Positions 1 to 15,235 of a stretch of DNA of 64,000 nt are shown here, one piece after another. A program made the position numbers and the translations under genes. The first letter of the stretch is position 1. Every line of letters starts with the position of its first letter. This DNA is from Methylopila sp. 73B (GTDB lineage Bacteria; Pseudomonadota; Alphaproteobacteria; Rhizobiales; Methylopilaceae). The notes under the pieces are model-generated. The model worked only from the letters and a program-made list of their open reading frames with translations. It did not search any database and was not told the origin of the DNA. The stretch is from the NCBI RefSeq assembly GCF_000526315.1, contig NZ_JAFV01000001.1, positions 3,722,501 through 3,786,500 of the forward strand, read 5' to 3'.

Positions 1-319
1 TGAGGCCGTAGCTCATCAACCCGCACTCGGCGTCGAGCCAGGAGCCCCGGCGGAGCATCGTTCCGACGATCGGAAGGACGGCGATGCCGTCTTCGGCCAG
101 GTATCCGCCGCCCGTGTAGCGGCGGCGGCCACTCCCGGAGAGCGCGAGGCGCTCCGGCCGCTCGGTTCGAAGCGGATGGCCGTCCGGTCCCGGCCGGATG
201 TCGGCTCCGTCGAGAATCCTCGGCCCGAGCGCGGTCAAGATCGTGTCGAGCCGACCGCGTTGCATCAAAAGAGGCGTGTTGAAGGTCGCGCCGACGATAT
301 GGGCGAGGCTAAGCCGCAT
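1..319 (-). CDS. Phage S49-family peptidase (head maturation protease), N-terminal part only
   Basis: The first 106 codons of a minus-strand gene that runs off the left edge. It starts at an ATG (317-319) that overlaps the end of the portal gene by 11 bp, which indicates translational coupling. The N-terminus (MRLSLAHIVGATFNTPLL, then a GGGYLAEDGIAVLPIVGTM segment) has the look of phage SppA/S49 proteases related to lambda gpC, which cleave capsid scaffold and portal during head maturation. The catalytic Ser and Lys lie beyond the window and cannot be checked. Portal followed by S49 protease is the standard lambda-type order, which supports the call. The major capsid protein would be expected next, outside the window. 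Confidence 0.72.
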   Translation of the reverse strand, partial: MRLSLAHIVGATFNTPLLMQRGRLDTILTALGPRILDGADIRPGPDGHPLRTERPERLALSGSGRRRYTGGGYLAEDGIAVLPIVGTMLRRGSWLDAECGLMSYGL

Positions 320-1886
320 CGGCGTCTTCCCTATCGGCCGGCTCCGGCTTCGACGCCTCGGCCATCGCGCCCGCGTCGCTACCGAACACGAGGCCCGTAT
401 CCTTCGCACGCCTCCGCTCGGCTGCGATCTCCGCGTCAACGTCTTCGACGTCATAGCCGCGCTCGGCCACGACCTGCGTCCGGCTCTTGAACCCGTTGTT
501 CACGGCCTCCGCCTCGGCCTTCACGTCCTTCGCCGGGTCAATCCACTCCTGTCGCGGCGGGAGCCATTCTGCGCCCCAAAGCTCAAGCGGGTCCGCAGCG
601 TGCGATGCCGCATCAACGAACCCGCTAAGAGCGGCGAGGTCGACGAACCGCCGCCAGATGGGTCGGCAAAGCTGAAAAATGAGCGTGTTGTTCTGCCACT
701 GGCTTACGCGGCGGCGAAACCGGATGATGTCGGTCCGGACGTTGGAGAAATTGCCCTTCGTCACGTCGCCGGTCATGTAGGCGTACGGCACGCCGAGGCC
801 CGCCGCGATCTTCGTGAGCGTCCGATACTGGAAAATGTCGTAATTTCCGCCGACGTCGGCTGGCGTGGCGAACTTGATGTCCCTGTCGTCGCCGAGGTCG
901 ATAATCGCGCCCGGCTGCATGCCGGAAATGGTCGGCTCCGGCTGAAAGCCAGCGAGGTTGCTGTCCTCATCCTCGTTGATCTCGCCGAGAACGTTTTCGC
1001 CGCGCCCGATCAAGAACCCGCCGAACATCGAAGCGGTCTTTTTGCGCTCAAGCTCGGCGTCATCGTAGATTTCGAGCGTGAAAAGCTTCACGAGGACACG
1101 CGCAATCCGCGGAACGCCGCGGATTTGGCCGCCCTGGCGGCCGTCGAACACGTGGATGACGTCATCTGCGATCACCCGCACGCGTTGGCGTGAGCCGCCT
1201 AGCCGGTTGCGCTCAGTGTCATAGGGGTGCTCGCGCCAAAAGTGGTACGCGACGCGACGATTCAGGGCGTCGAACTCGATGCCGGCGCGAATGTAGCCGT
1301 TGCCGGCAAGCTCGGCGTTGAAGCTCGAGTCGAGCATCTCGCCCGGGAGTATCTGAAGCTGAAACGGCACGGTGCGCATGTCGTCCGCGCGGCGGTCACG
1401 CATCCGGACAAAGCATTCGCCAGCAAGGTAGACCTCGCGCGCGACCTTCTCTTGCAGGCCGTAAAAGTCCGTGATGCCGTCCGCGTCCGCCTCGTCGGTC
1501 CAATTCCAGAACAGGTCGACGAGCGCGGCGCGCTTGCCGGCGGCCTTGGTCCGCGGTCGCGGCTTGATGCCGTCGCCGACCGAGGCCGACACCCATTCGT
1601 CGACCGCGCTGCCGGCGTAGCCGTCGTTCTCGTAAAGCCAACGCGCCCGAGCGACGAGAGTGGGGCCGGCCGCCTGGATCGCGACGTTGACGTGGTTCTT
1701 TGAGGGGTTGAACCCGCGCAGGCGCCGCCCCTGCCCCGCGGCTTCGAACGTCTCACTCGCCGAGCCTGGCGCGCGAAATGCGCTCATGGCCGACATCGCG
1801 CGCGCCGACGCGCCGGTGGCATCGCCGGAGGACACGCGCACGCGAGGTTTAGTCCCGGAGCCTGAGGTCAGCGACCTTGTGACCAT
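309..1886 (-). CDS. Phage portal protein, lambda gpB family
   Basis: Predicted 525-aa portal protein, the dodecameric ring at the capsid vertex through which DNA is packaged. The lambda-family pattern is visible: an N-terminal GFNPSKNHVN region, a region rich in aromatic and acidic residues around ARWLYENDGYAGSAVDEW, the segment YLAGECFVRMRDRR, then ADDVIHVFDGRQGGQIRGVPRIARVL, and a C-terminal half with GLGVPYAYMTGDVTKGNFSNVRT. The length is normal for the family. The true start may be an internal Met near residue 31 or 34, because the first 30 residues are low complexity and the AGGAG-type signal is poor. A 270-bp non-coding gap precedes it, where lambda-like phages would carry terminase and a head-tail joining protein. 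Its reading frame is intact, so the gene may be functional. Confidence 0.9.
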   Translation of the reverse strand: MVTRSLTSGSGTKPRVRVSSGDATGASARAMSAMSAFRAPGSASETFEAAGQGRRLRGFNPSKNHVNVAIQAAGPTLVARARWLYENDGYAGSAVDEWVSASVGDGIKPRPRTKAAGKRAALVDLFWNWTDEADADGITDFYGLQEKVAREVYLAGECFVRMRDRRADDMRTVPFQLQILPGEMLDSSFNAELAGNGYIRAGIEFDALNRRVAYHFWREHPYDTERNRLGGSRQRVRVIADDVIHVFDGRQGGQIRGVPRIARVLVKLFTLEIYDDAELERKKTASMFGGFLIGRGENVLGEINEDEDSNLAGFQPEPTISGMQPGAIIDLGDDRDIKFATPADVGGNYDIFQYRTLTKIAAGLGVPYAYMTGDVTKGNFSNVRTDIIRFRRRVSQWQNNTLIFQLCRPIWRRFVDLAALSGFVDAASHAADPLELWGAEWLPPRQEWIDPAKDVKAEAEAVNNGFKSRTQVVAERGYDVEDVDAEIAAERRRAKDTGLVFGSDAGAMAEASKPEPADREDADAA

Positions 1887-3392: not shown

Positions 3393-3737
3393 TCAACATT
3401 CGGACAATATCTTACGCAACCGCTCTTCGCTGGGAAAGCGCCCCGCCTCAAGGATTACGAAGAACGTCGCGAGATCAAGATCAAGCGGCATCCCGTTGCT
3501 TCGGTCGCGCTGGAAGCGGCTCGTCGCGTATCTCCGGGCGGCTTTTGCCATCAACGCAGCCGCCGCAGCGTCCGACATAGCCGCGTAGCTCCGCCTGCGC
3601 ACCTGGCGCAGAGCCTCATCGCGAACTGCGACCTTCACCGATGGCCCCGGTGGCCGGCCGCGCGAACGGCGAATATCGGCAGCGGCCGCGGGGTCGCGCT
3701 GACCGCGGAATGGGCGTGTGTCCAATTCGCGCGGCAT
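3393..3737 (-). CDS. Hypothetical island protein (114 aa)
   Basis: Unrecognised. The open frame extends up to 3899, but the upstream part lies in the repeat-rich non-coding stretch and looks non-protein-like (LCPQSILD etc.), so the ATG at 3737 (MPRELDTRPF) is preferred. The middle is basic and arginine-rich (IRRSRGRPPGPSVKVAVRDE), followed by an alanine-rich helix and the segment LDLDLATFFVILEAGRFPS. The basic region could bind DNA. Its 5' end lies inside the TGGACAC repeat cluster, so its transcription may be controlled by whatever binds there. Confidence 0.5.
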   Translation of the reverse strand: MPRELDTRPFRGQRDPAAAADIRRSRGRPPGPSVKVAVRDEALRQVRRRSYAAMSDAAAAALMAKAARRYATSRFQRDRSNGMPLDLDLATFFVILEAGRFPSEERLRKILSEC

Positions 3738-3983
3738 GTCCAAGATGGATTGTGGACACAAATTCTTTTGGGGAATCCGACCGTTAATCGAGTTTACAGG
3801 GGCGTGTCCGGGATCGGTCCTAATTGTGCTCTCTACTTCTTGCCCTACGGACCCTTCCGCCTTCTCGAGCGGTCGTTTCATTGAATATAAGATGGACACG
3901 TGGACACCGAGGCATAAGAGTTTGCTGTTGCTTGGTCTTTCGTGTCCAAGATGGAGCTAGAGGGCGTGGACACGCCTGGACAC
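3718..3983. repeat. TGGACAC/GTGTCCA repeat cluster (candidate iterons of the island)
   Basis: Seven exact copies of the heptamer, in both orientations: GTGTCCA at 3718 and 3942, TGGACAC at 3753, 3893, 3901, 3967 and 3977. Near copies sit at 3736 (ATGTCCA) and 3804 (GTGTCCG). A longer 13-mer, TGTCCAAGATGGA, occurs twice (3737 and 3943). The cluster fills the gap between the primase gene and the next gene, and the last two copies fall inside the primase 3' end. P4-type primase-helicases bind short repeats at their origin, so an origin is the leading reading; an operator is the alternative. Confidence 0.6.
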
Positions 3984-5477
3984 GGTGTCGTCTTTCCATC
4001 GCAATCTGATACCGACATAGGATCGCGACCGGCGCTCAGACCGTCCGCCCTTTGACCTGCCGTTCACGATCTCTGGAAAGGCGGCTCGGAGGGCTCGACC
4101 GAAACTGGTCTGAGTTCCCGGACGCTCCCCTGCAGCCTCAGCCCACGTCCGCCACTCTCGCCAAAGCTCATCGGTTTCGATGCGAGCCTCCGGCTCTCGC
4201 ACGCATTGATCGGCGACGAACTGGGTGATGGGACTCGCGTCTCCCACCATGTCGGAGAGCATCCGCTCTGCCGCTGGCGGCAACGTGAAGCGTCCTCGCT
4301 CTCGGAGCCGCGCAAGCCCGACTGCAGCCCACTCAACGATACCCGGCAGCTCGTCCCGAAAGCGGTTGATCAACGTCGGGTCTTCGCGACCTAGCCAGGA
4401 GCGTTCGAAGACAACCGGAACGGTGCGGTTCGGTAAGGCGCTCGAATCGTCGGCGATCGTGAGCGGCTCGTTCGCCGCATAGACGAGCCGGGCGGTCGGC
4501 GTACCGCTCCAGTCCCCGCGAAATTTTTGCGCGATTGAAGCCCGGTCCTCGCCAGAGAAGGTCAGGAACCGCTCTGCAAGCGCGCCTCGGTCGACCTGCC
4601 GACCGAGCCGCAAATCGGCGATCATCACCAATCGTTTTCCGATAGTCCCGGACAGACCGAACGTCTCGCCAAAGGCCGCAGACGAAACCGTGACCGCTTG
4701 CGCGGGGCCTAAAATTTCGCCCACGATCCGCAGGAAGAGAGATTTTCCAGACCTCGTGCGGCCAATTAAGGCCAAGATTTTTTGGAGGTTACGATCTCCG
4801 GAGATCAAGAGACCGATTACTTCTTGAATATGATCCCGCGACGCTTGATCCGGCCATAGCTCGCGAAGCCACCGGTTCCATTCGATGTGGTCAGTTCGGG
4901 AGTATTTCCAATCACCCGTGCCCGTCGCCATGTAGCGGCGATCGGAAGGCAACAGTTTCCTTCTCCGCAAGTCGAATAAGCCGTTTTTGCAAACGATCAA
5001 ATCTGCCGGCAAAGCATCACCGGACTGAGGTGTGCGCCAGGTGAACGGCTCGACCTCATCGGGGACCCGGACAAGGTCGCTAAGCGCGGCAAGGGTTTCG
5101 GAAATCACCTTTCGGTCGACCGTGAGCAAAGGCGCCCGCGTGTCGTCGCCATTCTTCGCCCGACATTCGACGCGAGCGAGCGCTATGCGAACCGCCGCGC
5201 TCATCTCGCCGTCCGCCGTCTCGCGCCAGTGTGATCCGCCCCAGCGCCACCAGCAGTCGCGCCAGCGTACGACGTCGTCGTCTCCGAAGTGCCGTAAGGC
5301 GATAGCCGCCCAGATAAGGGGAACGCGAGGGACGTCATGCCAGCCTCCAGCGCCGTCATCGAACTGCTCGATGCGCGCGAACGTCCGCAGGCTTGGCGGC
5401 CCTCCTAACGGAGATGCCTTCGGCCCGTCATCCGCTTGCGGGTCGTCGACTGTTTCGGTATGCATTTTGTCGAGCAC
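3957..5477 (-). CDS. Phage/plasmid primase-helicase, P4/D5 family (SF3 helicase)
   Basis: 506 aa. The protein has a D5_N-like region (about residues 120-215, with DLIVCKNGLFDLRRRKLLP) followed by an SF3 ATPase. Walker A is GRTRSGKS with Lys near residue 245, the Walker B-like strand is KRLVMIADLR, and a sensor region reads ARLVYAANEPL. The C-terminus carries a winged-helix-like DNA-binding stretch (about 400-490). Such proteins open the origin and unwind DNA for phages, satellites and plasmids. It is shorter than P4 alpha (about 770 aa); an N-terminal primase domain with its zinc site is not evident, so it may be helicase only. The start is the first ATG, with a second Met at residue 5. The TGGACAC cluster adjoins its 3' end. 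Confidence 0.85.
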   Translation of the reverse strand: MLDKMHTETVDDPQADDGPKASPLGGPPSLRTFARIEQFDDGAGGWHDVPRVPLIWAAIALRHFGDDDVVRWRDCWWRWGGSHWRETADGEMSAAVRIALARVECRAKNGDDTRAPLLTVDRKVISETLAALSDLVRVPDEVEPFTWRTPQSGDALPADLIVCKNGLFDLRRRKLLPSDRRYMATGTGDWKYSRTDHIEWNRWLRELWPDQASRDHIQEVIGLLISGDRNLQKILALIGRTRSGKSLFLRIVGEILGPAQAVTVSSAAFGETFGLSGTIGKRLVMIADLRLGRQVDRGALAERFLTFSGEDRASIAQKFRGDWSGTPTARLVYAANEPLTIADDSSALPNRTVPVVFERSWLGREDPTLINRFRDELPGIVEWAAVGLARLRERGRFTLPPAAERMLSDMVGDASPITQFVADQCVREPEARIETDELWREWRTWAEAAGERPGTQTSFGRALRAAFPEIVNGRSKGGRSERRSRSYVGIRLRWKDDTVSRRVHAL

Positions 5478-5574: not shown

Positions 5575-6258
5575 TCACCAAAGGGACCCGTGATGGGCAG
5601 CGTGGTGAAGGGCTCTCGCGGCGATCTCAAGCCTGCGCGCCCAACCAACCCTGCCTGCGCCGAGGCCTTTGCCGTGACGACGGGCCACCTCGGCGATAAG
5701 CTCTCGCATCGCGCGCTTACGCTCGTCGGGCTCGGGGAAGTCGTCGAGCCGCTCGCAGAGCGCCATGCGGAAGACGACAGAGCGGCAATAGCGATAGAGG
5801 ATGCCGCGAACGATGCTCTCTTCACGTGAAGTGAGCGCCGACAGACGCTTGTGGCGCATCCACCACGCATGGTCGCGACACCACCAACCGTCGGCCAGGT
5901 GCGAATCCTGCGGAAGCGCTAGCTCCATCGCGATCTCGGGCGGCAGCGCGGATGGAGCATGCCAACGGATGCGATAGTCGCCGGGGGGCGTCTGCCGGCC
6001 ATGGCAGTGCGGGCGCCTGGTAAAGACTTGGGCGTCGAGGCCATGACCGTGCAATCGGCCACAGAACGGGCACCGCAAAGCACCGGAGGGCTGGTCGTCC
6101 TCCTCTATCCATCTCAAGAAGCCGTCGACGACGACGGCATTCGTCGCATCCGCTTCAGCATGCGACCGAGCGATGGCGTCAATCTCGTTCGACGTGAGAG
6201 CGCGGTCGTGTAGGCGTTCGCGCGGGTGCGGCGGCGGAGGAAGAGCCCGGCCGGCCAT
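5575..6258 (-). CDS. Hypothetical island protein with a Cys/His cluster (227 aa)
   Basis: Unrecognised family. Starts two bases after the AlpA-like gene, so the two are probably co-translated. Residues about 60-90 carry CPFCGRLHGHG and a later HCH pair, which resembles a zinc-binding knuckle. Tryptophan-rich segments (WWCRDHAWWMRH) follow, then a helical region with FPEPDERKRAMRELIAEVARRHG. Small zinc-finger proteins between alpA and the primase gene are common in P4-like satellites and can act as regulators, but nothing here proves that role. No membrane segment. Confidence 0.6.
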   Translation of the reverse strand: MAGRALPPPPHPRERLHDRALTSNEIDAIARSHAEADATNAVVVDGFLRWIEEDDQPSGALRCPFCGRLHGHGLDAQVFTRRPHCHGRQTPPGDYRIRWHAPSALPPEIAMELALPQDSHLADGWWCRDHAWWMRHKRLSALTSREESIVRGILYRYCRSVVFRMALCERLDDFPEPDERKRAMRELIAEVARRHGKGLGAGRVGWARRLEIAARALHHAAHHGSLW

Positions 6259-6260
6259 AG

Positions 6261-6470
6261 TCAGGCCGCCGGTTTGGCGTTTTCGGCCAAGAACCGCTGA
6301 AGTTCGTCCGCCATAATGACGGTGCGCCCGCCAATCTTGGTAATGTTGATCTTTTTCTGACGGCGCCAGAGATATACGAGGGCGGTCGACACCGCCAAAG
6401 CTTCGGCGACTTCGTTGATCCGATATGCAATGCGAGGAAGTGCGGAGGAGGAGGAAGTTACGGCATTCAT
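6261..6470 (-). CDS. AlpA/excisionase-like helix-turn-helix regulator (69 aa)
   Basis: Short MerR/HTH_17-type DNA-binding protein. The core reads YRINEVAEALAVSTALVYLW followed by KINITKIGGRTVIM and a C-terminal helix ELQRFLAENA, which is the usual fold of phage AlpA regulators and excisionases. ATG at 6470 is preferred to the longer reading because GGAG lies 8 nt upstream. Directly downstream of the integrase gene on the same strand (78-bp gap). In P4-like elements such proteins control integrase expression and excision; that is the probable role here. Confidence 0.8.
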   Translation of the reverse strand: MNAVTSSSSALPRIAYRINEVAEALAVSTALVYLWRRQKKINITKIGGRTVIMADELQRFLAENAKPAA

Positions 6471-6548
6471 TGTGGCTGCTCCGAATTGATTGAGCGGAGC
6501 ATGTCGGGCGATTTCGATTTGGTCATCGCACAAATGGGTACAGTGCCC

Positions 6549-7790
6549 TTAGCGATGACTCTCCGCGCTTTGGAGGTAATCGGCCCACACCGTCATCAGC
6601 TCCCGCCGCTTCTCAAGCGCGGTCCCCCGGCGGTAAGCCCGCTCGACCGCGTCGCGAAGGGTGTGCGCCAACGCCGCCTCGGCGACCTCTCGCGGGAAGG
6701 TTGTCTGATCGCCGGCCCAATCGCGAAAAGCCGACCTGAAACCGTGGGGGACGGCGTCGACTTTCAGGCGCCGGAGAACCGCGGACAGCGACATGTCAGA
6801 AAGCTCCGCGCCGGAACGAGGGCCGGGGAATATCACGCTGCCGCTATCGCGCTTGAGCGGCTGCACGGCCTCCAACACCGCCATCGCAGCCTCACTAAGC
6901 GGCACGACGTGCTCGGCCGCGGCTTTCATGCGGGCCGGGGGCACGCGCCATAGCCGGGCGTCCATGTCGATCTCGGACCACGTGGCGCCGCGGACCTCGC
7001 CGGAGCGGGCAGCCGTGAGGATGGCGAACTCCACGGCCCGAGCCCCCATCCCAGGCGCAGCGCGCAGCCGGATCATAAACGCGGGCATGTCTGCGTAAGG
7101 CACGGCTGCGTGGTGGCCGCGGGAAAGCTTCGTCCTTTTCGGCAACAGCCGGTCGAGGTGCCCTCGCCAAAGAGCGGGGTTCTCACCGAATCGAAGCCCT
7201 TGAGCTTTTGCGGCCGACAGCACCGCCTCTATGCGCCCCCGGAGCCGGGACGCCGTCTCGGGCTTGGACGTCCAAATAGGCTTGAGCACCTCAAGCACGT
7301 CCGCGGTGCTGATCTCGTCGACTGGCTTGTCGCGGATGGCGACGCAATAGCCCCCATCGGTCAGGTTGCCCGCCGCGTCGCGGACCCGGCTCAACGTCAT
7401 GCCCCACTGCGCGCTGTGCTTCGAGTTTCGCCATGACGGGCTCATCGCGGCGATCAACTCGTCCGCCGCCTCGCCGAATGTTGGTGTCCGCTTGGCCGCG
7501 CGTGACACTTCCTCCGCCTGCCGGCGCCGCTCCTCAATCGGGTCGAGACCGCCCAAAAGCATACGGCGCGCATCAGCGGCCTTTTCCCGAGCTTCGGCCA
7601 GGGTGACGTCTCGCGCCGGGCCAAGGCCCATCTCACGCTGACGCCCCCCATGGCGGTAGATCATCAGCCACGATTTCGAGCCGCTTGGGCTCACGACGAG
7701 GTGCAGATTTCCACCGTCCGCGTAGCGCCCGGCGTCCTTGATTGTCGCCACGGTGCGGGCGGTCAGACGGTTGAGTTCGCGCTTCGCCAT
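6549..7790 (-). CDS. int: Tyrosine recombinase/integrase, P4 type
   Basis: 413-aa site-specific recombinase that integrates and excises the island. The N-terminus has the arm-binding DUF4102 fold (RYADGGNLHLVVSPSGSKSW, then GLGPARDVTLAEAREKA), a core-binding SAM-like domain follows, and the catalytic domain contains TAARSGEVRGATW with Arg near residue 262, HGFRSAFRDWAG (His-x-x-Arg), LAHTLRD and the tyrosine nucleophile in VERAYRRG. All expected catalytic residues are present and the frame is open, so it should be active. The start is the first ATG. Its 5' end faces a tRNA-Ser-like 3' fragment 180 bp away, as usual for integrases that use tRNA genes. Confidence 0.93.
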   Translation of the reverse strand: MAKRELNRLTARTVATIKDAGRYADGGNLHLVVSPSGSKSWLMIYRHGGRQREMGLGPARDVTLAEAREKAADARRMLLGGLDPIEERRRQAEEVSRAAKRTPTFGEAADELIAAMSPSWRNSKHSAQWGMTLSRVRDAAGNLTDGGYCVAIRDKPVDEISTADVLEVLKPIWTSKPETASRLRGRIEAVLSAAKAQGLRFGENPALWRGHLDRLLPKRTKLSRGHHAAVPYADMPAFMIRLRAAPGMGARAVEFAILTAARSGEVRGATWSEIDMDARLWRVPPARMKAAAEHVVPLSEAAMAVLEAVQPLKRDSGSVIFPGPRSGAELSDMSLSAVLRRLKVDAVPHGFRSAFRDWAGDQTTFPREVAEAALAHTLRDAVERAYRRGTALEKRRELMTVWADYLQSAESHR

Positions 7791-8233
7791 CGTGCCTCAC
7801 TGCTGGGGTCTATCGCGCCGACCCCAGCAATGACCCTAGCACAAAACCTCGCTTCCCTTGTCCACCCTTCACGGCGCTTAACCGCGGACCTAAGCTAAGA
7901 TCATGATCTGATGAGATTTTTCGTATGATCTTTGACGCTCCTAACCGTGCTTAAACGGAAGTAGGGCGGACACCCTCTCCGCCATTCCTATCCGTCGACT
8001 TGCTCTTTAGACATTTGATTTAATAGAATAATTCGGCGTAGGCGGGCCCGTTGCCCATCATCGACGCCTGAATGTGCAGTACATTTGGCGACACAAATCG
8101 CAACACCGCTCCTTGAGGGCGACTTGCGTGGCGGCATCGCGGGCCCGATGAAACTCATCCAGCGCCGCTGGTCTGCCCTCTGAGAAGTGGTCCTCCCTGC
8201 GGTAAGGCTTTTGGCCATGTGGAGGACTGTCTG
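7791..8233. other. Island-chromosome junction; no confident gene
   Basis: About 440 bp. It includes the likely integrase promoter (an imperfect GCTGGGGTC...GACCCCAGC inverted repeat at about 7802-7828 could be its operator), AT-rich sequence at 7890-7960, and the candidate attachment site. At 8060-8200 minus-strand fragments such as ALDEFHRARDAATQVALKERCC resemble protein but no credible complete gene can be defined; they may be remnants. Confidence 0.4.
7971..7984 (+). other. attR: Candidate attachment site: tRNA-Ser 3'-end fragment
   Basis: CACCCTCTCCGCCA matches the 3' acceptor strand plus discriminator and CCA of bacterial serine tRNAs (5' partner GGAGAGG). No T-arm, anticodon arm or 5' half lies to its left, so it is only the 3' tail. 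P4-type integrases recombine at tRNA 3' ends and leave such a short copy at one end of the island. The orientation predicts an intact plus-strand tRNA-Ser beyond the left edge of the window. The match is short and also sits in a GGCGGA...TCCGCC hairpin. Confidence 0.4.
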
Positions 8234-8860
8234 ATGTCGAGGAAGAGGCACGCACCTGAAGAGATCGTCGCGAAGCTGCGGCAGGTTGAGGTTCTGACGG
8301 CGCAGGGACGCACGGTCGCGGAGGCGATCCGCTCGATCGGCGTGACCGAGGTCACGTTCTAATCGTTGGCGCACCGAGTATGGCGGCCTGAAGGGCGACC
8401 GGAGCCTGCCCCGGACTTGATCCTGGGTGAGCGCCTGAAGGAGCTCGAGGCCGAGAACGCGCGGCTGCGGCGCGCTGTTTCGACCTGACGCTGGACAAGA
8501 TGATTTTGGCGGCGGCGGCGCGGGGACCCGAAGGGCGGCGTCAGCGAAACTGATCAGCCCCGCTCGTCGCCGCGTCTGCGTCGACCGTGTGAGAGCCAAG
8601 CTCGGCGTGACGGAGCGTCGGGCTTGCCTCGTGCTCGGCCGGCGCCGTCGTCTCGAAGACCGCCTTCATCGAGCCGGGCAGCCCCTGGGAGAACGGCTAT
8701 TGCACGAGCTTCAACGCCTGCCTGCGGGACGAGCTTCTCAACGGCGAGATCTTCACCTCGCTCGCTGAGGCCAAGGCCGTGATCGAAGGCTGGCGGCGGC
8801 ACTACAACGCCCTCCGTCCGCACTCGGCCCTCGGCGGCGCGGCTGCCCCAGCGTTTCCGC
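8234..8860 (+). pseudogene. Decayed IS3-family transposase (orfA and truncated orfB)
   Basis: An IS3-type OrfA begins at the ATG at 8234 (MSRKRHAPEEIVAKLRQVEV, then GRTVAEAIRSIGVTEVTF) but a one-base insertion turns the next Tyr codon into TAA. The rest of OrfA continues in other frames (TEYGGLKGD, LKELEAENARLRRAV, LTLDKMIL). OrfB starts as RRRVCVDRVRAKLGVTERRACLVLG near 8560 and then jumps to KTAFIEPGSPWENGYCTSF and IEGWRRHYNALRPHSALGG, so most of the DDE core is deleted. Clearly inactive. Terminal inverted repeats were not found. Confidence 0.85.
8409..8427. repeat. Short palindromic repeat inside the transposase remnant
   Basis: CCCCGGA-cttga-TCCTGGG, seven-base arms with one mismatch. 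It sits where OrfA coding sequence is interrupted (between GGLKGD and the LKELEAEN segment), so it looks like a small palindromic element inserted into the dead gene. Similar palindromes recur in alphaproteobacterial genomes, but copy number cannot be judged from this window. Confidence 0.35.
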
Positions 8861-9453
8861 GCGGTCGCGATCGTGCAGGCTATGGCCGCCGCCATCGCAG
8901 CCGAGCCAATAGCCCAGCTGCTCCATGCGGCGCGCATATACAGCGGCGGGGGAAACGCCTCGCCCGGCGCGGCGCCGCCTTGAAATATGAGATCCGATAG
9001 CTTCTGGGATCGGGCCCCGAGCGCAAACGGATCCAGCGGAGCGATCCGGATTCGGACCGTGTGACGCAACGTGTCACTGCTGCCGCTCGCTCGCTTGAGC
9101 GCGAAGGAATTCCGCAGCCCATGCTGTTTCGGCGGCGCGAGAGGCGGCGCCACGATCCACTGAGGTCGATGCCGGGCTTGGCGAAGACCGCGCCCGGCCC
9201 AAGCGCCACGCCGCCCCGGCCGATCGTGACGGCGCGACGGGAAGCTCGACGGGCATGGCGCGGTCTCCTTGAGGTACGCCGTGATCCCCGTCGCCCCGAA
9301 TGGGAACTGCGCGACGCCGTACCGGTGACCCTCAGCGCTTTCCAAGCGTCAATCTCTTGAGCTTGCGTGACGGCCGGGCGGCGCGTCGTACGCTCGTTCT
9401 GCGCCGCGCTTGTTGGTCCGCAAACGGATTAATGGGCGGTCGATCGCCACGCG
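8861..9453. other. Decayed region, possible broken minus-strand gene
   Basis: No intact gene is supported. On the minus strand from about 9256, readable pieces (LPV, TIGRGGVALGPGAVFAKPG, then WIVAPPLAPPKQHGLRN and SDTLRHTVRIRIAPLDPF) join only by switching frames, as in an old pseudogene. I cannot name the ancestor. The region separates the mobile DNA from the sigma factor locus. Confidence 0.35.
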
Positions 9454-13072: not shown

Positions 13073-15235
13073 GTGGTCGAGACGGGCGTCGCTGAGCGCG
13101 GCGGATGGCGAAGCGGCCTGGCGGCGCGGTTTACGGCGCTGACGGGGCTGCTGCTCGTCGCGCTCGCCGGAGCCGTGGTCGCCTGCGTGTCGTTCGAAAC
13201 CCGCCGCGACGCCGCAGAGCGAAGGGTCGTTGAACTCGCCCGGGACGTGCAGGCCGCCGCCGAGGCGCTCGGCCGCGGAGACGAGGTCCATGCGGTTCTG
13301 AACGCGCTGTCCGCGCGGTCGCATGCGCTCTACGTCACGCTGGACACGCGCGGAGGCGAGACCCTCGTCGCCCTCGCGCCGGCCGCGCCGCCGCCCGAGG
13401 TGACCCGCGACGCCCTGACCGAGACCAGCGGCGATGGGCCTGCGGCCGTCACGGTGGCCGATGGCGCCGCCCACGCCGCCAAGACGGTGGCGCTGAGCGG
13501 CGGCGGGGAAGCGACCCTCGCGGTCGGCGTGTCGCTGACGGACGCCGACGGGGCGGCCGCAGCCGCCGCGTCCCGTGGACTGTTCGCTGCGCTCGCCGTC
13601 CTCCTCGTCGGACTTCCGGCCTTCGCCCTCATCGCGCGCCGCACGTTCAGCCCGCTTCGCGGTCTGGCGCAGGCGATCAGCCGCGTCGACGGCGCGAGCG
13701 CCGAGGTCGACCGCGCGGCGCTCCGCCGCGACGAGATCGGCGACCTTGCGCGCGCGCACCTGACGATGACGCGCGAGGCGTTCCGCAACGTGGCCGCGCT
13801 GCGGCGCGCGGCGTTCGACGATCCTCTGACGCGTCTCTTGAACCGTGATGGGCTGAACCGGCGCCTGTCCGAGGCGCTGCAGGTGGGGCAGGGCGTCGCG
13901 CTGCTCAAGATCGAGGTGGGCGGCCTCGAACGGGTCGCGACCGGCCTTGGGCCCGCCGGCGCCGACGCCGCCGTCCATGGCGCCGCCGACCGCGTTCGGG
14001 AGGCCGCGGCCGAATGGACCCGCCGCGCCCACGCGATCCATGCGCTCGGCGACGACCTCTCCGTTTCCGTCGCCCGCATCGGCGAGGCGGAGTTCGCGTT
14101 GCTCGCCCACGGCGCGGGCGAAGCCGCGGCGGAGGAGCTCGCGCGGTTGACGCTCGCGGCGTTCGAGGCGCCGCTGCGGCTCGACGAGCACCGCGTCGGG
14201 CTGTCGCCCGCGATCGGCGTCGCCTTCGCGCCGCTGCACGGCGACCGCGCCGAAGCCTTGATGCGTTCGGCCGGCGCGGCGCTCGCGGCGGCGAGACTCG
14301 CGCGCGGCCCCGCCGTCCGGATCGCGGGCGCGGAGCTGAACGACCGCGCGTACTCGCGCCTGCGGATCGAGCAAGAGCTCCGGCGGGCGCTGGTGGAGAA
14401 TGAGCTCGAAGTGCATTACCAGCCGCAGCTCGCGCTTGGCGGCGGCCGGGTGATCGGGGCCGAGGCCCTGGTGCGGTGGCGCCATCCCCTCCGCGGCCTG
14501 ATCGCGCCCGGCGAGTTCGTGCCTGTGGCGGAGGAGACCGGTCTGGTCGAGCCGCTCGGCCGCTTCGTGCTGGCCCGGGCCAGCCGGCAGGCGGCGGCGT
14601 GGGCGACCATGGGGATCCCGATCCGCGTCGCGGTCAATGTGTCGCCGCTGCAGTTCCGCAATCCGAGGTTTTCGGAGGCGGCTCTCCAGATCATCCGGGA
14701 GGCGGGCGCCGATCCCAGCCGAATCGAGCTGGAGATCACCGAAAGCGCAGCCATGGCCGACCCGTCCCACGCCGCCCGGGAGCTGGCGCCGCTCAGGAGC
14801 GCAGGGGTGCGGATCGCGATCGACGACTTCGGCACCGGCTATTCGAACTTCGCCGCCCTGACGCAACTGCCGTTCGACGTGCTGAAGATCGACCGCAGCT
14901 TCGTCCGGGACGCGCTCGTGACGCCAGGCGCCCGGGTCGTGGTGGAGGCGGTGCTGGGCCTCGCCCGGAACCTGGACGTCGAGACGGTGGCGGAAGGCGT
15001 CGAGACCGAAGAGCAGCGCGCGTTCGTGACCGCGGGCGGGTGCACGTTTGGACAGGGCTACCTGTTCGGCCGGCCGATGCCCGGCGAGGCGTTCGAAGCC
15101 TGGTACGCGAACCGGCTCGGCGCGGAGCTGCGCGCCGTCGCAGCCGAGGCGCAGGGCCAGCTTTGGGGACGACACGCGGCCGCCCGCGCCGTCATCCCAC
15201 CCTCGTCCGGCTTCGCTCAGCCCGCCGCGTCGTAG
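13073..15235 (+). CDS. Membrane GGDEF-EAL protein, probable c-di-GMP phosphodiesterase
   Basis: 720 aa. Two membrane helices (about 20-42 and 165-190) flank a periplasmic sensor region; a HAMP-like linker follows, then a GGDEF domain (about 245-425) and an EAL domain (about 435-690). The GGDEF signature is degenerate, GEAEF near residue 337, so no cyclase activity is expected, though GTP binding may remain. The EAL domain keeps EAL (about 464), ITESA, DDFGTGYS (about 584), LKIDRSFV (Lys about 605) and AEGVETEEQ, so it should hydrolyse c-di-GMP. The start is GTG at 13073 with GAGGAAAT upstream. In a flagellated organism this could affect the motile-sessile switch. Confidence 0.9.
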   Translation: MVETGVAERGGWRSGLAARFTALTGLLLVALAGAVVACVSFETRRDAAERRVVELARDVQAAAEALGRGDEVHAVLNALSARSHALYVTLDTRGGETLVALAPAAPPPEVTRDALTETSGDGPAAVTVADGAAHAAKTVALSGGGEATLAVGVSLTDADGAAAAAASRGLFAALAVLLVGLPAFALIARRTFSPLRGLAQAISRVDGASAEVDRAALRRDEIGDLARAHLTMTREAFRNVAALRRAAFDDPLTRLLNRDGLNRRLSEALQVGQGVALLKIEVGGLERVATGLGPAGADAAVHGAADRVREAAAEWTRRAHAIHALGDDLSVSVARIGEAEFALLAHGAGEAAAEELARLTLAAFEAPLRLDEHRVGLSPAIGVAFAPLHGDRAEALMRSAGAALAAARLARGPAVRIAGAELNDRAYSRLRIEQELRRALVENELEVHYQPQLALGGGRVIGAEALVRWRHPLRGLIAPGEFVPVAEETGLVEPLGRFVLARASRQAAAWATMGIPIRVAVNVSPLQFRNPRFSEAALQIIREAGADPSRIELEITESAAMADPSHAARELAPLRSAGVRIAIDDFGTGYSNFAALTQLPFDVLKIDRSFVRDALVTPGARVVVEAVLGLARNLDVETVAEGVETEEQRAFVTAGGCTFGQGYLFGRPMPGEAFEAWYANRLGAELRAVAAEAQGQLWGRHAAARAVIPPSSGFAQPAAS

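Follow-up and report, generated by a model that had tools for sequence, protein, structure and literature searches.

The closest described counterparts of the locus reported here are the replication origins of small phage satellites. PICI origins, as described in PMC6092414, lie immediately 3' of rep and consist of two iteron sets that flank an AT-rich region, and a PICI rep-ori segment supports a plasmid. For the SaPI origins, PMC9894130 describes repeats in opposite orientation that load two head-to-head helicase hexamers, and compares the SaPI origin with the origins of SF3-helicase DNA viruses (SV40 T-antigen). The window analysed here is a 64-kb stretch of Methylopila sp. 73B DNA in which a 266-bp segment, positions 3718-3983 (unstranded), carries seven exact TGGACAC/GTGTCCA copies and two one-mismatch copies in both orientations. 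This array consists of new repeat letters on an already known layout, and it is very probably the replication origin of a satellite-like island of ~15.08 kb that is organised on the PICI/P4 plan with repeat letters of its own. A first-pass annotation of this DNA had proposed an island origin with a repeat unit not known from described satellites; the origin reading is supported by the low genome-wide density of the heptamer and by repeat clusters beside 49 of 63 related helicase loci (p≤0.05), and the novelty extends to the letters but not to the layout.

The copies listed in that annotation were all recovered on recounting. Exact copies start at 3718, 3753, 3893, 3901, 3942, 3967 and 3977 and the one-mismatch copies at 3736 (ATGTCCA) and 3804 (GTGTCCG), while the longer word TGTCCAAGATGGA is present twice, at 3737 and 3943. 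The whole 64-kb window holds 11 exact TGGACAC, seven of them in 3718-3983, and the mean count in 100 dinucleotide shuffles of the window is 3.63. Counted across the 4.38-Mb genome the heptamer is not dense elsewhere (208 exact copies, about one per 21 kb), a density at which ~0.013 copies are expected per 266 bp; the chance expectation of 0.03 given at first was thus of the right order of magnitude. In 20,000 dinucleotide shuffles of 3718-3983 itself, the top 7-mer counted on both strands reached four copies in seven shuffles and never exceeded four, against the seven observed. The tight pair GTGGACAC-N(1-30)-TGGACAC has one occurrence genome-wide.

The individual copies fall into two facing groups at the end of a helicase gene (3957-5477, minus strand), whose stop codon occupies 3957-3959. 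The array had been placed next to a primase; it does adjoin the helicase gene, but two repeats, the first of the array (3967-3983), are part of the gene's last codons, and the others are 3' of the gene. In the helicase-proximal half, outer iterons at 3967-3973 and 3977-3983 (plus strand, 10 bp spacing) are followed by an inverted single iteron at 3942-3948 (minus strand, 25 bp to the outer pair and 41 bp to the inner pair), a spacer at 3908-3941 (53% A+T) and an inner pair at 3893-3899 and 3901-3907 (plus strand, 8 bp spacing), giving spacings of 10, 25, 41 and 8 bp. A central gap of 82 bp (3811-3892, 50% A+T), the candidate melting region, separates this half from the distal one. There, a single inner iteron at 3804-3810 (minus strand, GTGTCCG, one mismatch, its partner missing) precedes a spacer at 3760-3803 (55% A+T), an exact inverted single iteron at 3753-3759 (plus strand) and outer iterons at 3736-3742 (one mismatch) and 3718-3724 (exact), both on the minus strand; from the lone inner iteron the spacings are 51, 17 and 18 bp, so that the distal half is incomplete. 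The A+T rise is modest, with 50-55% in the spacers and gap against 37% in the part of the island inside the window.

From the array, its place 3' of the helicase gene, its recurrence with other letters at homologous genes and the spacing it shares with phage P4, we infer an origin that would work as follows. The C-terminal domain of the D5/SF3 helicase, probably a winged helix, would bind the TGGACAC iterons, which form two half-sites in opposite directions around the 82-bp gap. The helicase-proximal half-site is complete (outer pair, inverted single, inner pair) and the distal one partly degenerate; one hexamer would be loaded on each, and the two head-to-head hexamers could then melt the A+T-richer spacers and the gap. 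Replication would presumably start after excision of the island.

The proposed initiator is a 506-aa helicase of the D5_N/DUF5906 (SF3) type by Pfam, scoring 45.4 bits for D5_N (cut-off 22.4) and 40.7 bits for DUF5906 (cut-off 27.6), with no primase catalytic domain matched by Pfam. At its C-terminus a Pox_D5 match of 20.9 bits falls just below the 21.4 cut-off, and an RFX match is also sub-threshold; the domain outlined by these two matches covers residues about 411-492 (codons 4002-4247, minus strand). P4 alpha likewise matches D5_N, DUF5906 and Pox_D5. The sole solved structure with a sequence match at E≤0.1 is 7ola (E 9.4e-8), the SaPI5 primase-helicase, and a profile of 42 C-terminal segments built without P4 gave weak matches to RFX1, primase C962R and 7ola (E 0.001-0.006). 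A structure search with an alignment containing P4 alpha had found 1ka8, the P4 alpha domain; this result was circular and was set aside, 1ka8 being absent from the matches once P4 was removed. The AlphaFold model of the helicase is poor overall (mean pLDDT 56), and the fold matches therefore support the helicase family only. Within the model, residues 421-490 form helices and strands in winged-helix order with block pLDDT of 57-91 against the model mean of 56; the C-terminal domain is probably a winged helix.

The surrounding island is delimited by an exact 14-bp repeat, CACCCTCTCCGCCA, of the 3' end of tRNA-Ser(CGA). One copy lies at 7971-7984 of the window (plus strand) and the other at genome position 3715405, at the 3' end of the tRNA-Ser(CGA) gene (genome 3715329-3715418); the repeat thus defines an island of ~15.08 kb (genome 3715405-3730484) within which the window begins and which ends, on the right, at 7984. 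Reading from that end, family matches identify a tyrosine integrase (6549-7790, minus strand) and an AlpA-like HTH_17 regulator or excisionase (6261-6533, minus strand), followed by a 227-aa protein with a CPFCG motif (5575-6258, minus strand), the D5-type helicase and the array. Beyond the array, leftward, come four small ORFs of 114, 149, 206 and 107 aa, the 114-aa one taken from the ORF list (3393-3737, minus strand, start inside the array), and then a lambda-type portal protein (309-1886, minus strand, family match). An S49 head protease, a 630-aa tape-measure protein, an AlpA/HI1420-like regulator and a HicB-like protein lie further left, and all of these named genes are on one strand. 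The HicB-like and AlpA/HI1420-antidote-like proteins on the island's left side (L037 7615-8512) are possibly a toxin-antitoxin or regulatory pair.

Set against the described satellites, the array shares with the PICIs its position immediately 3' of an SF3/D5 helicase gene, which is where PMC6092414 places their origins, and its repeat sets likewise stand in opposite orientation around an A+T-richer stretch. The island, too, has the PICI layout: it is small and tRNA-integrated, with int, AlpA, rep and ori in one direction and the 14-bp att repeat at tRNA-Ser(CGA). Its likeness to the two-set PICI arrangement is less clear, the distal set being incomplete and the gap and spacers reaching only 50-55% A+T against 37%. 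Its repeat letters are different, its helicase has no matched primase domain and it carries portal, head protease and tape-measure genes; PICIs enter this comparison by their published description. The likeness to origins of the SV40 T-antigen type is one of proposed logic, opposite sites for two head-to-head self-loading hexamers. By analogy, the array in all likelihood works like PICI and SaPI origins.

The missing inner iteron of the distal half could also mark the array as a relic, once the origin of an element that has since decayed and stopped replicating. The island proteins scanned gave no match to a major capsid protein or a large terminase, and debris resembling an insertion sequence seems, by eye, to sit outside the right end. 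The reading frames of the helicase, integrase and AlpA are nevertheless open, the att repeat is exact over 14 bp, and two related islands of the same genus keep the tape-measure gene (82% and 50% identical at the protein level), pointing to a lineage that is being maintained. A relic is for these reasons unlikely, and a functional origin remains the preferred reading. A TerS homologue, which some PICIs have, was likewise without a match among the proteins scanned from this island; phrog_57 TerS was found in both sister islands, those of genomes G012 and G011.

These sister islands allow the array to be followed together with its neighbours. That of G012, from the same genus, has the same gene order: integrase (63%), AlpA, the 227-aa protein (34%), helicase (46%, the closest homologue), array, a 114-aa homologue (36%) and the two next proteins. 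Its array is CGGACAC x7, and five of its hits are spaced 11/24/41/8 against 10/25/41/8 in the proximal half of the window's array, with further hits around those five, for example one 10 bp before the inner pair; the array regions as a whole are 53% identical. Exact att repeats in the G012 island were limited to chance-like 13-14-bp matches, and none was chosen. A short patch, AGCACAAT, in the central gap (3811-3892) is common to the aligned window and G012 (L032) arrays, and may be a further conserved origin element or a product of chance. The island of G011 resembles the window's in its tape-measure DNA (88% over 1,564 bp), its 227-aa protein (57%) and its 114-aa homologue (32%, E 3.5e-6). 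Its initiator (L134 6708-8720) belongs to another family, phrog_35358, with an AAA-like P-loop and weak further matches to primase families, one of which is also matched by the window's helicase; the two proteins share only a 45-residue P-loop match. The G011 array, GCGGAAC, which differs from that of the window, again stands where its initiator gene ends at the 3' side. Initiators other than D5 helicases may thus also carry 3' iteron arrays.

The far end of the array overlaps the ATG (3735-3737) of the 114-aa ORF, and the first-pass annotation had allowed for an operator of the 114-aa protein. In the operator reading, this protein or a different regulator of the island, for instance AlpA, would control the leftward genes from the repeats, and the overlap with the helicase end would be incidental. 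Besides the start codon inside the array, this alternative can draw on the 114-aa homologues that also follow the arrays of G012 and G011, on an SRGRPPG stretch in the protein, which we take to resemble an AT-hook, and on the 32-36% identity among the homologues, at which specificity may have changed along with the repeats. The protein, however, gave no match in family searches, and nine sites spread across 266 bp with P4-like spacing are more than an ordinary operator has. In the locus flanks covered by tblastn at E≤1e-3, only G012 (L032 and overlapping copies) matched the 114-aa protein, yet arrays lie 3' of most helicases; homologues outside those flanks would have escaped this search. A separate tblastn of the G011 island at E≤1e-3 does not list the 114-aa homologue there, although a 58-bp DNA match falls at its place. 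Six loci with 114-aa matches were examined, and an initiator plus array stands upstream in three (the window, G012 and G011). The matches in G040 (p=0.225), G303 (p=1.0) and G129 (p=0.68) have no cluster, those in G303 and G129 containing stops. In G011, moreover, array and initiator differ together from those of the window, which favours an origin over an operator. We regard the operator as very unlikely, and the origin is again the reading carried forward.

Whether arrays of this kind recur was assessed across helicase homologues collected from 25 of 150 related genomes and from 53 of 397 genomes of the order (E≤1e-10). This gave 63 loci, comprising 60 places from the order survey and three more from the relatives survey, with the window included and without collapsing for relatedness. 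In each, a 560-bp segment spanning the gene's 3' end, from -60 to +500 of the stop, was scanned for the commonest 7-mer on both strands against 199 dinucleotide shuffles. On this same uncollapsed set, 40 of the 63 loci have a heptamer cluster directly 3' of the helicase gene at p≤0.01, and 49 have one at p≤0.05. The controls gave 0/63 and 1/63 at these two thresholds for coding segments, 1/61 and 3/61 for the interval 600-1160 bp downstream, and 0/35 at both for the 5' flank. No cluster was found in 14 of the 63 loci, and a laxer one-mismatch 8-mer scan recovered one of these at p≤0.05. Four loci (L022, L025, L026 and L030) had been dropped before the count as fragments or C-terminal-only matches; on a first k-mer look L025 has a cluster, L022 and L030 have none and L026 has only a G+C-rich low-complexity one.

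The annotation had suggested that related islands should carry the same repeat beside homologous primases, and that its absence beside close homologues would speak against an origin. Clusters do recur, as in G012, but their letters differ from one locus group to another (CGGACAC, GGCTGAC, GATGCGC, TGTCACA, AACCCTCGC, AACTGTC, GCCTCCC and others), and absence is confined to single cases such as G330, which is among the closer helicase homologues and has no cluster. AACCCTCGC is an iteron shared by D5-helicase loci from several families of the order (L013, L077, L021, L024, L028, L094, L095, L096 and others), and its letters are more conserved than those of the window's subgroup. One genome (G386) has two helicase loci, L074 and L075, with near-palindromic TGTCACA iterons, several of them 10 bp apart.

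Beyond these genomes, the window helicase as a query found no close relatives in genome_contigs or viral_contigs, and a three-row alignment found one match in genome_contigs, in Bauldia litoralis (Hyphomicrobiales; the G032 locus again, also when tested alongside the IMG/VR loci), and none in viral_contigs. An array is present in 14 of 15 IMG/VR loci related to two of these helicases; the loci are not independent, six being near-identical among themselves and one the same as its query. Large terminase genes lie near the helicase on two of these contigs (47-48 kb), and the layout is therefore not confined to satellites. Among 11 named phage records, hand-picked from two match lists and not random, arrays were found in Paracoccus phage Pthi1, Bacillus phage phi105, Lacticaseibacillus phage R18.1 and Pseudanabaena phage Pan4 (p=0.005 each) and in Methanoculleus virus L4768 (p=0.015); the other six, Rhizobium phage RR1-A, Salmonella phage 9NA, Vibrio phages 13VV501A and 1.032.O, Streptomyces phage Yara and Flyfo podovirus Tbat2_2, have none. 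Taken with the named phages, the IMG/VR contigs point to a wider occurrence of iteron arrays 3' of such helicases than the published statement on them conveys.

The letters of these arrays vary and their spacing recurs. The commonest distance between adjacent same-strand iterons is 9 bp, and many arrays consist of outer iterons, one inverted iteron, about 40-55 bp, an inner pair, a gap and then the mirror image. For counting, a module was defined as an inner pair 8-11 bp apart with an inverted iteron 38-56 bp outward, limits that were set after the arrays and P4 had been seen. Of the 49 loci with clusters, 48 entered the test, one having fewer than four non-palindromic iterons. At least one module is present in 30 of these 48, compared with means of 20.1 for shuffled strands and 10.2 for random positions, and two facing modules in 12 of 48, compared with means of 0.94 and 0.10; the gap between facing modules is 54-92 bp. 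The window is outside these 12 because its distal half lacks one inner iteron. Between +40 and +280 after the stop, the 49 loci have an A+T content 0.07-0.14 above the locus mean; in the 12 double-module loci it is 53% and 63% in the spacers and 49% in the gap, against 36% for the loci.

The same spacing is found in phage P4, which was not among the 48 loci. In the P4 record (NC_001609), the annotated type 1 repeats are spaced 10/11/22/43/10 at ori1 and 9/43/18/14, twice, at crr, and both sites fit the module; this match is a description and not a blind prediction, since the module limits were chosen after the arrays and P4 had been seen. Our scan applied to P4 finds the repeat 3' of alpha at p=0.005 (coding control 0.035). 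The window's array resembles P4 in having short iterons in both orientations and in the distances within a half-site: from the inverted single to the inner pair it is 41 bp in the window and 43 bp in P4, and the members of the inner pair are 8 bp apart in the window and 9-10 bp in P4. Like the array, crr lies 3' of a helicase gene whose families are common to both. In P4, however, type 1 repeats occupy two separate places and crr consists of two direct 120-bp repeats, whereas both halves in the window are together, inverted and 3' of the helicase gene; zinc-ribbon and Toprim domains are a further feature of P4 alpha. The letters differ as well, TGGACAC in the window against TGTTCACC/GGTGAACA in P4. 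Reading TGGACAC as P4-type letters was tried and not used as evidence, the likeness to GGTGAACA being loose in either orientation.

The P4 arrangement raises the further alternative that the array is an incompatibility, copy-control or partition site and that replication starts elsewhere, much as ori1 lies apart from crr. P4 does supply a precedent, its record showing type 1 repeats both at crr, the cis required region for replication 3' of alpha, and at a distant origin. PICI origins are by contrast compact and 3' of rep in the account given in PMC6092414, and the 15,081-base slice containing the island has, besides the array, one further single exact TGGACAC and hence no second cluster of the exact repeat to act as an ori1. 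A copy-control or partition site is accordingly very unlikely, in our judgement, and the array itself is retained as the origin.

The D5/SF3 helicases of satellites and temperate phages could share a single half-origin module, made up of outer iterons, an inverted single and, about 40-55 bp on, an inner pair with 8-11 bp spacing, in which spacing is kept and letters are free, P4 ori1 and crr being separated or tandem copies of it; we advance this idea tentatively, judging its chances to be appreciable yet short of even. If true, geometry and not repeat letters would be the conserved hexamer-loading code, compact origins would hold the module as an inverted pair, and the initiator would travel between islands together with its array, as a single cassette. 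A search that lay mostly outside the subscription literature found no paper on a half-site geometry common to P4 and PICIs.

The pairing of helicases with iteron letters was examined in 39 of the 40 loci with p≤0.01, one having been dropped for a short frame. Iteron similarity tracks overall helicase relatedness (r=0.63, 39 loci). Beyond that relatedness, the letters are predicted no better by the C-terminal domain (partial r 0.09, Mantel p=0.094, 39 loci) or by the presumed recognition helix (partial r -0.10, p=0.97), and the comparison therefore does not show which domain reads them.

These results extend the range of helicase-adjacent iteron origins of the PICI type to include an uncharacterised satellite-like island, many loci in its order that encode D5 helicases, and the two terminase-bearing IMG/VR contigs. 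With dozens of natural helicase/iteron pairs in which letters differ and spacing recurs, origin recognition and double-hexamer loading become testable by swaps, including the question of whether a helicase accepts foreign letters or only its native spacing. Origin finding in such elements could begin with a search of the 300 bp behind the D5 helicase gene.

Several smaller features of the window and its relatives deserve mention. Beside the right att site, positions 8200-8900 resemble, by eye, the broken remains of an IS3-type transposase. A tRNA-Ser of 76 bases that ARAGORN reports at 14133-14208 is probably a false positive; it lies within a long open frame (13073-15235). A tape-measure protein of ~630 aa is encoded in three related islands of the same genus, at L037 9624-12955 (genome 3719623-3722954), L032 12242-15873 and L134 10757-13759. 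Scanned proteins of these three islands gave no match to a major capsid protein or large terminase; a head maturation protease lies beside the tape measure in the window's island and in that of G012, and TerS-like proteins occur in G012 and G011. The three islands may belong to a lineage of satellites that encode a tape measure of their own.
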